NCBI RefSeq assembly: GCF_000744255.1 | Contig: NZ_JQLO01000001.1 | Coordinates: 1,612,001 to 1,676,000, forward strand | Reading direction: 5' to 3' | Source: Carnobacterium divergens DSM 20623 | Lineage (GTDB): Bacteria > Bacillota > Bacilli > Lactobacillales > Carnobacteriaceae | Length of the DNA: 64,000 nucleotides | Part shown: piece after piece, positions 7,073 to 57,791 of the stretch | Position numbering within the stretch: position 1 is the first letter of the stretch | Layout: every line of letters starts with the position of its first letter | Position numbers and translations under genes: made by a program | The notes under the pieces: model-generated | What the model was told of the DNA's origin: nothing | The model's input: the letters and a program-made list of their open reading frames with translations, nothing else | The model's database searches: none

Positions 7073-7554
7073 TTCAACCTCCTTGTCTCCTACCTTATAT
7101 TAAATTAAAATTCATAAGTTTATAATTAAAAAAATTCTTCTTTAGTTCTTTTTGGATTTATTTTCTAGGTTCTACTAATCATTTGTTTCTAAAACTTTTT
7201 TTCAACAAAATTAGTATACTTTATTTTATTCCAAAATAATTTCCAATTTTTCCTTATAAAAATAACTTTTTTGACACAATACAATATAAATATGTCAATT
7301 TAAAAGATAAATTACGTATTTTTTTTGCGCTATTTTGAACTATTAAAGCAAGCGATTCCATTGCGAATTTTTGTATAAACTAAAAAAACGTATATCTTTC
7401 AAATTTGATTAATATTTACGTTATTTCTAATAGATGATCAATTTTATCTCAAACAACTATGTCTAAAATATTAAATTTTCTTAGACTTTTTTTGTATAAA
7501 ACATTAACAATTTTAATTCCTTGAGTGATCGTAACTGCTAGTTTTATCGATTGA

Positions 7555-51579: not shown

Positions 51580-51915
51580 TTATCTTTTCTTCTTATTAAA
51601 TAGATATAGGACTACGCTTATACTAGCAATTCCTATCAGGATCCAATGAAGTTGGCTCAATTCACTTGTTTGCGGAAGATGATGGATTTCATTATCTTTA
51701 ATGATGGTTTCTTGATCTGTTAGCGTATTTTCTTCTTCATTATTCTCAGAAGGCTCATTTGCTTCATCTTCTGTTTGCGTTGTCAGTATTCCTGTTACTG
51801 GAATACTTGTCTCTCTATTTATTTCAATTGTTTCTCCATAAACTGATTGATTCATTAGTAGCAGCGAAAATACCGTACAACAAAGGAACAAATATGAAAA
51901 GTGTTTTTTCTTCAT
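51580..51915 (-). CDS. Sortase-anchored small surface protein (LPQTS)
   Basis: 111 aa: signal peptide (about 1-27), an acidic linker rich in E, D and N (about 45-75), the sortase motif LPQTS at 80-84 in place of LPXTG, a membrane helix and a KKKR tail. The mature protein is only about 55 residues, mostly spacer. Its segment IPVTGIL followed by acidic residues echoes IPVKGTLG in the preceding gene product. It starts two bases after that gene. It may be the wall-anchored partner of the secreted proteins in the operon. Confidence 0.8.
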   Translation of the reverse strand: MKKKHFSYLFLCCTVFSLLLMNQSVYGETIEINRETSIPVTGILTTQTEDEANEPSENNEEENTLTDQETIIKDNEIHHLPQTSELSQLHWILIGIASISVVLYLFNKKKR

Positions 51916-51917
51916 TA

Positions 51918-52541
51918 TTATTTTGTTACTGACTCGCCATTTTTATCTAGTACTTCAAATTTCAAATTCATATTATACGAAACTTTTGTGCTTTCATCTA
52001 CTAGCTTCTCAGGATCAACCGTTCCTTTATAAGTAAACTCATATACGCCTAATTTAGCATCTAATTTCCCTAATAATTGATTAACATTCTCTTTAACAAC
52101 TCCATTAGTTACAACATCAATCGCATCACCTGTTTTTGGCGTGAAGCTTAATTTAGTAAGTGCTGGCTCTTCCGAACCTGTAAAGGTTGATAAGTTCACA
52201 TTGATTGGACGTGCTGATAAATTTTTAATCGTATAATTATATGCCATAATTTCTTTATTTTCCTTTTCTGGATCTGTATTGAATGCAACACTTGTTGGAA
52301 TTGTTACTTTCAACCATCTATCATCTCCTTCAGGAATATTTTCTTCTGGATCTGTATTGTCTAACTTACCAAGTGTTCCTTTTACTGGAATTTCAACACC
52401 TTTTGTTGAATCGTATTGATCACCATCTGCATTATTAATTGTTTGATAACCAGTTGGTACTTGTTCGTCTGCAAAAACCGCTTGCCCCGTTCCAAAAACT
52501 ATTCCCGCTACTATCATTGGTGCTACTACATTTTTTTTCAT
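51918..52541 (-). CDS. Secreted protein with W-x-VTIPT domain (207 aa)
   Basis: A signal peptide (cleavage likely after AVFA) precedes a beta-rich mature protein. The segment RWLKVTIPTSVAFNTD (about 75-90) and the following YNYTIKNLSARPINVN closely parallel EWVHVTIPTKILFFSDK and YKIKNNSDNTTLNV in the large surface protein of the same operon, so they share a domain. The protein lacks the double WxL motif of WxL wall-binding domains. It starts behind AAGGAGAG. Assembly with the LPQTS protein is inferred from the operon. Confidence 0.75.
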   Translation of the reverse strand: MKKNVVAPMIVAGIVFGTGQAVFADEQVPTGYQTINNADGDQYDSTKGVEIPVKGTLGKLDNTDPEENIPEGDDRWLKVTIPTSVAFNTDPEKENKEIMAYNYTIKNLSARPINVNLSTFTGSEEPALTKLSFTPKTGDAIDVVTNGVVKENVNQLLGKLDAKLGVYEFTYKGTVDPEKLVDESTKVSYNMNLKFEVLDKNGESVTK

Positions 52542-52595
52542 TTTATTCTCTCCTTAGTGTTTTTTATTTATATTCAATAGCTTGTACTATTAAAT

Positions 52596-53120
52596 TTATT
52601 CATTTACTTGAATCGTCACTACTGCTTGAGTAGTCCCTCTTTTTTGTTTCGTCTTATTGTCGTATATGTCAACATATGCCGTTGCTTTATACGTTCCTAC
52701 AGCTACTTTTTTTGCTAATTTTGCTTTTGTTATTTCATAGCCCGGCTGAATTATCCCCGATTCGTATACCAAACTTTTATCACTATCTAAATTCACTTTG
52801 ACATTAATTGGATAAGCATTTACGGGTTCATTTTTAATATAGATATTTCCTTCCAACGTTTCTTGATTGAATGTCGCTTCTGGAAAAATTGTTAACGTGA
52901 ATTGTGTTTCATCAACTTCCTTTTGTTTGAAGGCCTTCATTTCCTTATCCGTCATTTTGTGTGCGTCTTTAGTCGGTGGAAAAGCCTCTCCTGCAATTAA
53001 ATCTTTTGGATTTTGATTGTTTTTATACCAATAATAGCCCCCAGCTACTCCTGCCAATAGTAAGAGAAGTAAGAGTATAATAAAAAATCTTTTTTTTAAC
53101 TTATTATTTTTTAATTTCAT
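52596..53120 (-). CDS. Membrane-anchored extracellular protein (174 aa)
   Basis: The ATG at 53120 follows AAAGGAG. A basic start and one helix of leucines (about 11-28) anchor the protein; the rest, about 140 residues outside the cell, has beta strands and ends VVTIQVNE. The gene lies 13 bases after the large surface gene and 54 before the next. I do not recognise a named family. By context it could be an assembly or tethering factor for the secreted surface proteins. Confidence 0.7.
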   Translation of the reverse strand: MKLKNNKLKKRFFIILLLLLLLAGVAGGYYWYKNNQNPKDLIAGEAFPPTKDAHKMTDKEMKAFKQKEVDETQFTLTIFPEATFNQETLEGNIYIKNEPVNAYPINVKVNLDSDKSLVYESGIIQPGYEITKAKLAKKVAVGTYKATAYVDIYDNKTKQKRGTTQAVVTIQVNE

Positions 53121-53133
53121 TGATTGCTCCTTT

Positions 53134-55352
53134 TTATTCCTTGATTGCAAATTTCAACACCATACTACTTTCTGCATGGAAGGCATTTTTTGATTTAGGA
53201 TTAAAATAATCTCCTGCAAAAGAAAGTTCGCTTGAATTTTTAGGCATCAAATCAACAAGATTAGTTGACTTAGAAGCTGCATTCAAGCTTGTTATTTTTT
53301 GCTTGCCATCTACGTTAAGATTCAACCTTAAGGATGCTGTGCCTTCCGTTGGATCGGATTCTTGTTCTGATAAATAGGCAACCTCTGAATCTTGATTAAC
53401 TAAAAATGAAGCCATTGAAACATTCAGAGTTGTATTGTCAGAGTTGTTTTTTATCTTATATTTTTGTGATGTTACTTTTTCTTTATGATCCTTGTCCGAA
53501 AAGAATAGTATTTTAGTTGGAATTGTAACATGTACCCATTCATTTTTACGTTGACTTGGATATCATAATCAAATTGAACTTTTTTTCCCGACTGAAGCGT
53601 TTCTTCTACTCGAACTTTTGCCGGCTGTTTGCCTGGTTTTGTTGTGTCTGGAAAGGAGATAAATTTCACTGGCTTGATTTGGTTGTATTCTTTAGAATCA
53701 ATGTATTTTGCCATATTGTTCATAAAGTCTTCTTCTAATTCTTGTGGGGTTGTTCGCAAAAGTGTGGTGGCTTCTTTCGTTTGTAATTGATTAATTCTTA
53801 ACGGCTGAAAACCTGATTTTGTGACCTCATAATAGGTATTCTTCAATTCTGCATTTTCTTGTAATTCATTCTCATTCACAATCAAGCTATTTCGTTTTGG
53901 CTCAGCATGCCAAAGGTCAATTAAGTCCCCCTCTTTTAACTCTATTGGTTGAAATTCTTTAATTTTACTTAACGCATCGTCCTGCCCCGTCGCACTTATT
54001 AATCTTTGGGAAGGATTCAACTCATCTTCAAGTAATTGAGTTGGTTGGTCCAGTTTTTTCGTTCCTATCCAATAATAGAGTCCTTCACCGAATTCATTAT
54101 TAACCTTAGAATCTGAATTTTTTCGTTTAATCCCTACTTGATCCGTCAATGTATAGGTTTTTGAACTCGTATCATGCATAGTGATCACTCCAACCGAATC
54201 ATCATAGGCTCCTTTTAAATAGATACTCTTTCCCCATCTCACCGTCACAGGTACTTCAATATCTACTGCTTTTCCTTTTCCAGTAATTGTAGCTATCATT
54301 TTTTGATTGCCTATAGTTGTTGTATCTGCTGGTGTTTTAATCTTCACTGAATAGTCAGTATTTCCTAATACTTCTTCACCCAATTTAACATTTTTAATAA
54401 ATTCCATTGGGTTCCTTTTTTCAATAGCCGTTCCTAAATCAACTTCTTGCGAAATCGCTTCTGCAGTTAATAGTCGATTATCCACCACGTTATAATTCAA
54501 ATGAACATCTGATTCAATATAATAATCATCTAGCCTATCTGTTATTCGAACAATTGCTTCTGTTTGTCCTGCTTTACTAAAGTCAGGCTTTTGAATATAG
54601 GTAAAAGTTGGATTATTTGTCAAAGATTGCGATAAAGTGATGTAACTACTTGGCGTTGGAATGGGTGAATTTAATTCCACTGAACTTGGCTCACTTGTTG
54701 TATAAATAAAAGCTGGGGAATCTAAAATATTCGAAAGATTGATTACTTTTTCTGTTAAATCTACATTTGAGATTACGCCGTCAATATAGAGTATCCAAGG
54801 GTTATAATAAGCTGCTTGATTTTCCGGGATGTCTCTCATATAAACTTCTGTGCGCTTTATTTTTACATTAGCTGTCGTAAATTTATTTTGAAGTCTTTCT
54901 ATTATTAATTGCTTTCCACCGTCTGTTGTATTAATTGAAATTGTTCCATCCGTTTCAAAGGTTAAACCACCACCTCGCACCTCTATAGTTCCTTTCATCC
55001 AAGTGTTTTCACCTGGTCCTTTTTCTTCCCCTTCCCATTGAGGAACATCAATCATTATTTTAGAACCTTTTTGCCATCCTAGATGTTCTATAGAATTTGC
55101 TATTCTTCTTTGCAACTGTTCTATAATGTAATCTCCTTTATTAGCAAACATCAAACTTATATCTATTCTTGCCCATGAGGGAACATCTGCCCATTGTGTC
55201 GATAAAAAAGGAGTAATCATTTGCTCCTCAGTAGTCGAAATGTTTGTTAACGGATTGATTGGGATTTTTTCAATTTTTTCAGCTTTAACCGTGCTTGTAC
55301 TCCATAATAATGTTAGAAGAGGAATACAAATCAACTGTTTCTTTTTTATCAA
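53134..55352 (-). pseudogene. Large secreted surface protein, broken by a one-base frameshift
   Basis: The first frame (55352 to about 53545) starts at TTG behind GGAGAG and has a signal peptide (cleavage near VKA-EK), a low-repeat N-terminal domain, then beta-sandwich repeats with KPDFSKAGQTEAIVRITD-like strands and WGKSIYLKGAYDDSVG. Within a run of five A residues (plus 53543-53547) the protein-like reading moves to the -1 frame and continues with NEWVHVTIPTKILFFSDK to the stop at 53134. A sixth A restores one protein of about 740 residues. The continued frame encodes the domain shared with the 207-aa protein. It heads the four-gene operon. Truncation removes that C-terminal domain. A sequencing error in the run is possible. 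Confidence 0.75.
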
Positions 55353-55449: not shown

Positions 55450-55596
55450 TTGTAAACTAATCTAATGATTATTTTACGTTTATACATATTTTAGTTTTAT
55501 CAGCAAAGAATCCTATTTTAAGTGGGTTTCTTTTTTTTTTATTTCATTTTTTTAGTTATACATAATCTCGTAACAAAACATTAGATTAGTTTACAA
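55450..55596. repeat. Perfect 18-bp inverted repeat around a 111-bp spacer
   Basis: TTGTAAACTAATCTAATG (55450-55467) and CATTAGATTAGTTTACAA (55579-55596) are exact inverted copies in the gap between the divergent surface operon and Mga-like gene. Each arm contains TTTACA facing outward. The left arm also has a partial dyad extension inward (GATTATTTTAC), making it about 26 bp long and roughly symmetric; the right arm has a weaker one. It may be a recombination site pair for the nearby serine recombinase or a pair of regulator-binding sites. Confidence 0.9.
55479..55506 (-). promoter_or_regulatory. Promoter-like pair inside the inverted-repeat segment, facing the surface operon
   Basis: TTGCTG (55501-55506) and TATAAA (55479-55484) on the minus strand are 16 bases apart. 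The -35 match is weak, the -10 match good. It would transcribe the surface operon in the present orientation and the regulator if the segment were inverted. Confidence 0.3.
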
Positions 55597-55618
55597 TTAT
55601 ATGATACTTTGATATTCT
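55590..55618 (+). promoter_or_regulatory. Candidate promoter of the Mga-like gene
   Basis: TTTACA (55590-55595) inside the right arm of the inverted repeat and TATTCT (55613-55618) are 17 bases apart. The start codon follows 74 bases further on. On the opposite side the left arm offers TTTACA with a weaker TCTGAT 18 bases away toward the surface operon. Confidence 0.45.
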
Positions 55619-55691
55619 AACATGGATAACACTAGGTGTGTTGACGAGTTCTTGTCCATCAATAGACAGGAAAAAGAAAAAGGAGCGTTCT

Positions 55692-57214
55692 ATGTATTCA
55701 AAAATTTTATCCGAATCAAGGCAAAATGAGCTATTAGTTCTCTATGACATTATCCAAAAAAAACAAACTCTACAGACCTTATCTGAAAATTTAACAATTC
55801 CCAGTCGAACAGTAAAAAGCTATCTACAAAAAATAAATCTTGAAATTGAAGAATCCTTTCATTTTCAAACGTTTATTCAAGCAAATTCTAAAGGAGAGTA
55901 TACAATAAATCCCTCCTTTTCTGAAAAAAAATTACTTATTTACTATCAACTCAAATTAAATTATTTAAAAAAATCCCCTTATTTTATTTTGCTAGTTCTT
56001 CTAACAACAAATTATCAGCTTACTGTAACTGAGGCGACCAATGAATTATTTGTAACTTCCTCCTATTTAAGTCGCATTATAAAAACTCTTAATGAAAAAC
56101 TTATCGTCTTTGATTTTCAAATTACTAAGGAAAATTCCTGCCTATTATTAACTGGCAATGAATTAGCTATTCGTACCTTTAGTTTCCTCTTCCTAGGGGA
56201 TGCTTTTCAAAGTCTAGAATGGCCTTTTAAAGAATTTACGAAAGAAGAATTACGACAACAACTTCCACAGGATATCTTAAAAGATTCAGCTAAACGCTCA
56301 GATACAAAAAAAATTTACTCTATTTTCTATTTGCTGTCCTAACGATCCGAATTAAGCATCAAGCTTTTCCGAAAAAACCAAACTCAGAGGAATTTACTAT
56401 TCTCGATCTCATCCAAAAGAACCATGACGTCTCCAGAATCTTTAATGCTCATTCTTTTGATGGACTTTCGCTAAAGGATTATAAAAGTGAAATTCTTTAT
56501 TTTAATTTTTTTACAAGAATTTTTCTTTCAGATATCATTTTACATGATAAAAAATTAACACTTGGTCAAATTTTTTCAAGAAAAGAAGCAGATGCAACGG
56601 CATTTGCCTCTCATCTAACAACCGAACTTAAACAGCAATTTAAAGGAGACTTTACTGAAGAAACTTCTTTTCTTTTTATCTATTATTTCACGTTGCTATA
56701 TGTATTTTTTCAATTAATGGGTTCTAAAATTCCTTATTTTTTAGAATTGCATTTTCCAAAACCAGACTATAATTTATCAGTCAACGATCAAAAAATGGAT
56801 GAGATAAAAGTTTTTTACGACAAATTTTCAAAAAAAGCACTTCAAGAGCATCATTATAAATTACTTAAACACCCTCTTTTAAAAGATTATTTTTGCAGTT
56901 TAATCTATACTTTATTGCAAATTGTAAAAACACCTCGAATTTTTATTTACTTACAAATAACAAAAGATTTCACTGGTAAATTTTTTATTACAGAGCAATT
57001 GGCAACTATGTTTAACACTGAGACTGTTGTGATTACAGAAGATGTTCGAAAAGCAGACTTAATTATTTCAGATACTCTTGAATTATCTACAAGTTGCAAA
57101 TCAATTTTCTTCCTAAGCTCTCTTAAAAATTACCACCAATGGCAAGAACTTATTCAGATCATTCAACAAATACTATTAGAAGAACTTTTTGTTGAAGAGA
57201 CCTCGGAGGAATAA
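55692..57214 (+). pseudogene. Mga-like regulator broken by a one-base frameshift
   Basis: The ATG at 55692 follows AAAAGGAG. The first frame (to TAA at 56342) encodes the Mga HTH region (SENLTIPSRTVKSYLQKIN) and second HTH (SSYLSRIIKTLNEKL). At a run of eight A residues (56306-56313) the coding pattern moves to the next frame, reading ...LLYFLFAVLTIRIKHQAF and on without stop to TAA at 57214. One extra A would give about 507 aa, close to the 501 aa of the Mga-like gene at 1.8-3.3 kb. It diverges from the surface operon and was probably its regulator. The serine recombinase ATG is one base past its stop. Confidence 0.8.
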
Positions 57215-57215
57215 A

Positions 57216-57791
57216 ATGAAAACAATTGGCTACGCTAGAATCAGCACCAGTCATCAACAATTAGATGCACAAATCAACGCCTTAACAAAGTATGGCTGTG
57301 ATAAAATTTTTACGGAACAAGAAAGTGGAAGAAAAACAAAGCGACGTCAATTAGATAAAGCAATCGCTTCTCTTGAAAAAGGAGACACCTTTGTCATTTT
57401 TAAGTTAGACCGTTTGTCGCGAGGAACAAAACACTTGCTTTCATTAATGGAATTTTTTAATGAAGCTGAAATCAACTTTGTCAGTATTCAAAATAATATT
57501 GATACCAGCACCTCTATGGGAAAATTTTTCTTTACTATCATGAGTGCATTTGCAGAAATGGAAGCAGAATTAATTCGTGAACGAGTATTGTCTGGACTAG
57601 AAGCTGCAAAAGAAAAAGGAATCACGTTAGGAAGACCGATTGAAAATAAAAATTTAAAGACTGTTATTGATCAATATATGAATACAGACTTATCGATTAC
57701 AGAAATCGCAAAATTAAATCAAATTTCAAGACCTACTGTTTATAATTACTTAAAAAGAGAAAATATACCTAAACGTAGCAAAATTCTGTAA
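57216..57791 (+). CDS. Serine recombinase (resolvase/invertase family)
   Basis: 191 aa from the ATG at 57216, behind CGGAGGA inside the end of the regulator gene. The catalytic Ser is in GYARISTSHQQ, followed by EQESGRKTKRRQLDKAI, FKLDRLSRGTKHLL with the active-site arginines, the long E helix and a C-terminal HTH (ITEIAKLNQISRPTVYNYL). The size fits DNA invertases such as Hin and Gin and small resolvases. It is intact, unlike the two neighbouring genes. It could invert the repeat-flanked segment, or be the last gene of a former mobile element. Confidence 0.88.
   Translation: MKTIGYARISTSHQQLDAQINALTKYGCDKIFTEQESGRKTKRRQLDKAIASLEKGDTFVIFKLDRLSRGTKHLLSLMEFFNEAEINFVSIQNNIDTSTSMGKFFFTIMSAFAEMEAELIRERVLSGLEAAKEKGITLGRPIENKNLKTVIDQYMNTDLSITEIAKLNQISRPTVYNYLKRENIPKRSKIL

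Follow-up and report, generated by a model that had tools for sequence, protein, structure and literature searches.

Our analysis of the window, the whole 64-kb stretch of DNA under study, identifies a short intergenic segment that is moderately likely to be an invertible terminator gating transcription of a surface operon and turned by the serine recombinase encoded next to it (Table 1).

Table 1. Positions of the features of the proposed switch, in window coordinates unless another record is named
Feature	Position	Strand	Remarks
Left crossover site (predicted)	55452..55477	+	26 bp, 12 + AA (55464-55465) + 12; includes left arm; dyad and leave-one-type-out model
Right crossover site (predicted)	55569..55594	-	26 bp, centre TT (55581-55582); includes most of right arm
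Invertible segment	55464..55582	.	119 bp, centre to centre; opposite orientation in G001
Terminator-like hairpin and T-rich tail	55505..55542	+	hairpin 55505-55533, -8.4 kcal/mol; faces regulator in window
Promoter-like pair, regulator/recombinase	55590..55618	+	TTTACA-17-TATTCT; -35 in outer half of right site; same in G001
Weak leftward promoter candidate through segment (putative)	55601..55629	-	TTATCC-17-TATCAT, score 6.9, near background
Mga-domain regulator	55692..57214	+	frame change between 56306 and 56345
Serine recombinase, proposed invertase	57216..57791	+	191 aa
First surface gene	53134..55352	-	two frames; change between 53418 and 53547
Rest of surface operon	51580..53150	-	ORFs 52596-53150, 51918-52541, 51580-51915
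Second locus, inverted AA..TT sites	L091 6253-6383 (own genome C1 ~2206252-2206382)

An intergenic segment in opposite orientation in a second genome

Perfect 18-bp inverted arms (55450-55467 and 55579-55596) enclose 111 bp between the minus-strand surface operon, which starts at 55352, and the plus-strand unit of regulator and recombinase, so that a scan of the window bears out the original prediction of such a repeat between divergent units. The arms can be extended to 21 bp at 95% identity, and the 64 kb contains no other perfect 18-bp inverted repeat with a spacer of 20-500 bp. A chance origin of the repeat is disfavoured, with a comparable one found in 1 of 200 first-order Markov windows.

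An intergenic segment with flanking inverted repeats that occurs in nature in two orientations is what is expected of an inverton, and both features were found here, the second in two genomes only, the window's own and G001. The genus comparison comprised three genomes, namely the window's own (G000), G001 and G002. In blastn the 147-bp stretch from arm to arm pairs with G001 on the opposite strand with the flanks straight, and identity across the interior is 86/110 when it is flipped versus 65/100 with many gaps when it is not. The alignment score of the interior correspondingly goes from -5 unflipped to +59 flipped, the top of 1000 first-order resampled sequences being 13. The flank facing the regulator agrees with G001 at 46 of its first 49 aligned bases and the flank facing the surface operon at 57 of 88; G002 gave three matches of 27-36 bases only. 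Judged from these alignments, inversion of the segment is almost certainly real, and the inverted copy is what the original prediction had proposed to look for in related strains.

We label the divergent operon a surface operon because its proteins begin with signal-peptide-like starts, its first protein has Rib and mucin-binding matches and is 35% identical over 333-367 residues to the product of a plasmid gene annotated as WxL domain-containing, and its last ORF encodes an LPXTG protein of the EF2685/EF0750 family (57.2 bits, cut-off 47). Among the five window pieces and three G001 proteins searched there was no Pfam WxL or WxLIP match. The regulator carries a Pfam Mga domain above cut-off, and against NF053736 (AcpB/EbpR/MafR, cut-off 130) its N-terminal piece in the window reaches 63.7 bits and its open relative in G001 89.0 bits. 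The regulator gene and that of the first surface protein are both open in G001, where this protein has 739 aa. The frame changes of the window strain, of which that in the regulator lies near an A run, may represent decay, phase-variable runs or assembly error, and it may be, as a speculation, that mutation in this strain has silenced an operon whose segment stays in the orientation predicted to be ON.

These frame changes also count in favour of the idea that the inversion is a relic, turned once after the lineages parted and no longer switching, with a recombinase that is idle or serves another purpose such as resolving. Such a history would fit an orientation difference that was seen in one genome pair only, and it would fit the plasmid relatives, which are all alike in orientation: all nine complete plasmid loci of the LX10 type agree with no flipping among them, and both pEK4L-type records lie the same way round (one collinear 92% match). 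A second such locus in the window's own genome likewise has the same orientation in G000 and G001. Against the relic stand a recombinase that is open and 95% identical in G001 and site pairs that are kept across distant hosts, and we consider a fixed inversion improbable.

Site pairs that accompany the recombinase

The recombinase gene is open throughout, in agreement with the earlier claim that a complete serine recombinase gene lies in the regulator unit. Its product matches PF00239 (Resolvase) with 149.3 bits (cut-off 23.3), the catalytic serine S10 and R8 are invariant among 5 relatives, and the best solved relatives are the DNA-invertases 4m6f and 3uj3. Mpi of Bacteroides (NF009949) is a serine master invertase with short invertible regulatory segments; unlike Mpi, the window enzyme scores 62.9 bits, below that family's cut-off of 272, and has one dedicated segment instead of many. 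Three further such recombinases, 60-65% identical, are encoded in the window's own genome. In Vagococcus allomyrinae (L099-L102, L112-L116) several recombinases of the family occur in one genome, most of them in close pairs, and several adjoin WxL-type genes.

The partial dyad that had been noted at the left arm is the left 26-bp site of Table 1, and the dyad of the right site is less regular; hix sites are likewise 26 bp long with an AA centre. A recombinase sharing at least 66% identity with that of the window was found at 18 loci, comprising the window, G001, G168, G169, G071, Amphibacillus sediminis and 12 plasmid records, of which 11 are labelled E. faecalis and one Enterococcus sp. LX10. 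A site model was trained on five locus types, each being withheld in turn for its own test (the window and G001 together), and it recovered one pair in all 5 withheld types. When applied to 1,318,816 bases (the window and all collected loci, after removal of 13 duplicates of the window and G001 loci) at a threshold of 25 and with centres 70-140 bp apart, the model gave 17 pairs, two of them duplicates, which places a pair in 15 of the 18 recombinase loci. All 15 are oriented AA..TT, head to head, with centres 86-117 bp apart (117 bp in the window). At the same threshold and spacing the 1.32 Mb contained no AA..AA, TT..TT or TT..AA pair, and no pair outside the recombinase loci.

The G169 pair was predicted before its use in any training set. 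In LR962599, one of the 15, the recombinase lies at the opposite end of a linear record and would adjoin the sites if the plasmid is circular. No pair was found at three of the loci: in G071 an in-frame stop interrupts the recombinase, and L111 and L059 are truncated at the end of a contig or record. Once wider spacing was allowed, plasmid pEK4L (L048) yielded an extra, lower pair (score 28.1, TT..AA, 232 bp apart), which counts against the switch reading; the same plasmid carries, directly upstream of the regulator, a perfect palindrome with arms of 22 bp and a loop of 4 bp (7486-7533).

Beyond this subfamily, Enterococcaceae recombinases at 56-63% identity gave no pair with this site model, and a search of Enterococcaceae at E 1e-72 gave 0 hits in 105 genomes. 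Beside a 62% identical recombinase and WxL-type genes, G234 has a pair of perfect 28-bp palindromes separated by 79 bp (L103 1857-1991); as their central AT is self-complementary, they have no direction. The search of viral contigs for the recombinase returned no relative, and a phage search returned two records, both below 60% identity. The exact-arm pattern occurs at two loci in viral contigs (L136, L137), matches that are likely due to chance; both loci formed part of the 1.32 Mb scanned with the site model.

A control was assembled from homologues of the regulator, using 30 loci, the best from 194 genomes with a match; 27 of these loci have no such recombinase in the flank. These 27 regulators are 26-47% identical to that of the window, and about 1.5 kb of upstream sequence was available for each, except for one with 223 bp; no site pair was found in any of the 27. 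The presence of pairs in 15 of 18 recombinase loci and in 0 of 27 regulator-only loci indicates that the sites follow the recombinase, and the 26-bp sites are most likely its crossover sites rather than operators of the regulator.

This distinction matters for the two models of the original prediction, which leaned both ways: one in which the recombinase inverts the segment and one in which, without inversion, the Mga-like regulator binds the arms as twin operators. The operator model drew on a TTTACA facing outward in each arm. Both boxes are present. The one on the right makes a fair -35, followed 17 bp on by TATTCT, and is kept in G001; the one on the left lacks a good -10. The inverted copy in G001 and the regulator-only control both disfavour twin operators, which we regard as very improbable. 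What survives of that model is the -35-like box in the outer half of the right site: in 6 of 10 contexts TTTACA in this position heads a rightward promoter-like pair, directed to the regulator and recombinase. Inversion by the recombinase has gained from the inverted segment in G001 and from site pairs that track the recombinase subfamily, and the neighbouring enzyme very probably performs it.

A directional terminator, probably turned, and the candidate promoters around it

Terminators and promoters were scored in 11 contexts: the window, G001, three of the nine complete LX10-type loci, both pEK4L-type records, G168, G169 and the second locus in two genomes. Every scored segment bears a directional intrinsic terminator. 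The stronger terminator points to the controlled gene in 10 of the 11 contexts and away from it, to the regulator, only in the window; the LX10 type has an additional, weaker terminator in the other direction. The window hairpin comes from a looser scan, since a stricter one found none in the window and did find the G001 counterpart.

Leftward promoters were scored on the same contexts, on a scale where a score of 7 is reached by about a third of random stretches. The surface side gives scores of 4.3-6.3 across all 11 contexts, which never exceed the background mean of 6.35. The regulator side gives 8.6-10.5 in 5 of the 11, with 10.5 and 9.9 in the pEK4L type, 8.6 in G168 and 10.5 at the second locus in both genomes, the others being 6.9 in the window and G001, 6.2 in G169 and 5.2 in the LX10 type. 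Inside the segment the best scores range over 3.7-7.3, mostly at or below background, with the top value in G001. The original prediction had placed a weak promoter pair facing the surface genes inside the segment; in the window the best such score is 4.4, below the background mean, and the pair is thus unsupported.

An invertible promoter is the main rival to an invertible terminator. It would involve the same inversion by the same enzyme, with an interior promoter pointing to the surface operon or to the regulator and the terminator insulating its back. This is the classical design (fim, hin; PMC2784873), and there are sequences that would suit it: in pEK4L and its relative an interior TTGACA is paired across the right centre with TAGTAT at 17 bp (score 11.4), a partner that is lost on flipping, and the G001 segment holds the leftward pair that scores 7.3. 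The low interior leftward scores speak against it, as does the finding that no promoter position is common to the locus types, unlike the terminator, which is. From these comparisons the element that is consistently turned appears to be the terminator, rather than any convincing promoter. We regard an invertible promoter as the less likely reading, and the terminator rather than a promoter as probably the main effect.

The directions of the terminators and the leftward promoter scores together suggest a model of a fixed promoter on the regulator side and a turnable terminator. In the mechanism that we infer, the recombinase would bind the two inverted 26-bp sites, cut at the central AA and flip the 119-bp segment, and would do so in an ongoing manner. 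The unit of regulator and recombinase would have a fixed promoter; with its -35 formed by the outer half of the right site, this promoter would be there in either state. Leftward transcription through the segment would start from a gated promoter on the regulator side, possibly activated by the Mga-like regulator. With the terminator facing the surface operon, as in G001, leftward transcription would be stopped (OFF); with the terminator facing the regulator, as in the window, transcription would pass (ON).

The weak point of this model is the poor leftward promoter candidate in the window and G001. Its score is near background, the interior leftward pair of the G001 segment is slightly better than this regulator-side candidate, and the LX10 type has no regulator-side leftward promoter, all of which count against the model. 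In G169 the controlled side bears a gene that is, by reading of its ORF, itself a Mga-like regulator, such that the switch there would act one step upstream.

Related loci and known systems

At the second locus of the window's own genome, one of the three further recombinases and a Mga-like regulator are divergent from a surface operon with a Pfam WxL protein. In the gap between these units two inverted sites with GTAAACA-AA-TGTTTAC cores lie 106 bp apart; the pair scores 20.8 in the site model, below the threshold. A strong hairpin spans the right site and is built from both site halves, so turning the segment would remove it. A third surface region of about 15 kb (L092 8009 to L093 9554; own genome C1 2276014-2291550), also present in G001, has several WxL-like and WxL-interacting-type genes between two recombinases about 60% identical to that of the window, each beside a Mga-like regulator gene; this site model found no site pair there. 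Switches related to this one are carried by Enterococcus plasmids and are also found in other families of the order. One E. faecalis plasmid, that of L056, has a second switch-like place (LR962156.1 48883-49230). In G168 (L060; G168:C1:806000-825000) the switch and its surface cluster directly adjoin ORFs resembling conjugation genes, and this locus is perhaps an integrative conjugative element.

The original prediction did not recognise the device as a described one, which was too strong, as cwpV of C. difficile is a close working analogue (PMC2784873). There a 195-bp invertible segment with short inverted repeats lies upstream of a surface-protein gene, the promoter is outside the segment next to a repeat, and an intrinsic terminator is proposed to act in the OFF state (PMC2784873). 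The window locus shares the inverted repeats, the invertible segment before a surface gene and a directional intrinsic terminator in or at the edge of the segment (in the window, by the looser scan only), and it differs in that its promoter position is one that we infer, its site centres are 117 bp apart and its neighbouring enzyme is a serine recombinase encoded beside the switch, whereas the cwpV segment is turned by the tyrosine recombinase RecV, encoded elsewhere (PMC2784873). The switch of the window would thus work like cwpV without being its homologue. In the action of a small serine recombinase on inverted sites it would resemble Salmonella Hin/hix, which uses Fis and an enhancer (PMC3798978); the segment of the window is only 119 bp.

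A second likeness is to the elr locus of E. faecalis, described as a surface operon of WxL, small LPXTG and DUF916 proteins with its own positive regulator (PMC4522977). The operon of the window also has its own regulator, and an LPXTG protein of the family named above, and differs from elr in having no Pfam WxL match. The native elr promoter is described as inactive in vitro and some such surface operons as silent in culture, and the main text of that paper does not use the word recombinase (PMC4522977). Within the open-licence literature we found no report of inversion either at WxL loci or in Enterococcus. In a defined gut community surveyed for invertons, the median for Bacillus-like Firmicutes is given as 0 per genome, and the name Enterococcus is absent from the main text of the survey (PMC11892184), which suggests that such switches may be rare or overlooked in these bacteria.

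In summary, we tentatively propose a mobile family of switch cassettes that has not been described before, each combining a serine invertase, a Mga-like regulator and an invertible terminator of about 90-120 bp with its own LPXTG/WxL-type surface cluster. Members of the family would reside in chromosomes, on plasmids of Enterococcus and, perhaps, on a conjugative element, in several families of Lactobacillales, and with a -35 placed within the crossover site the recombinase could throttle its own gene by binding there. If this is true, a dedicated flip-switch would explain both clonal silence and mixed expression at such loci, would add a serine-recombinase case to the invertible terminators, of which cwpV is the nearest that we found, and would be a switch that seems to travel on plasmids.
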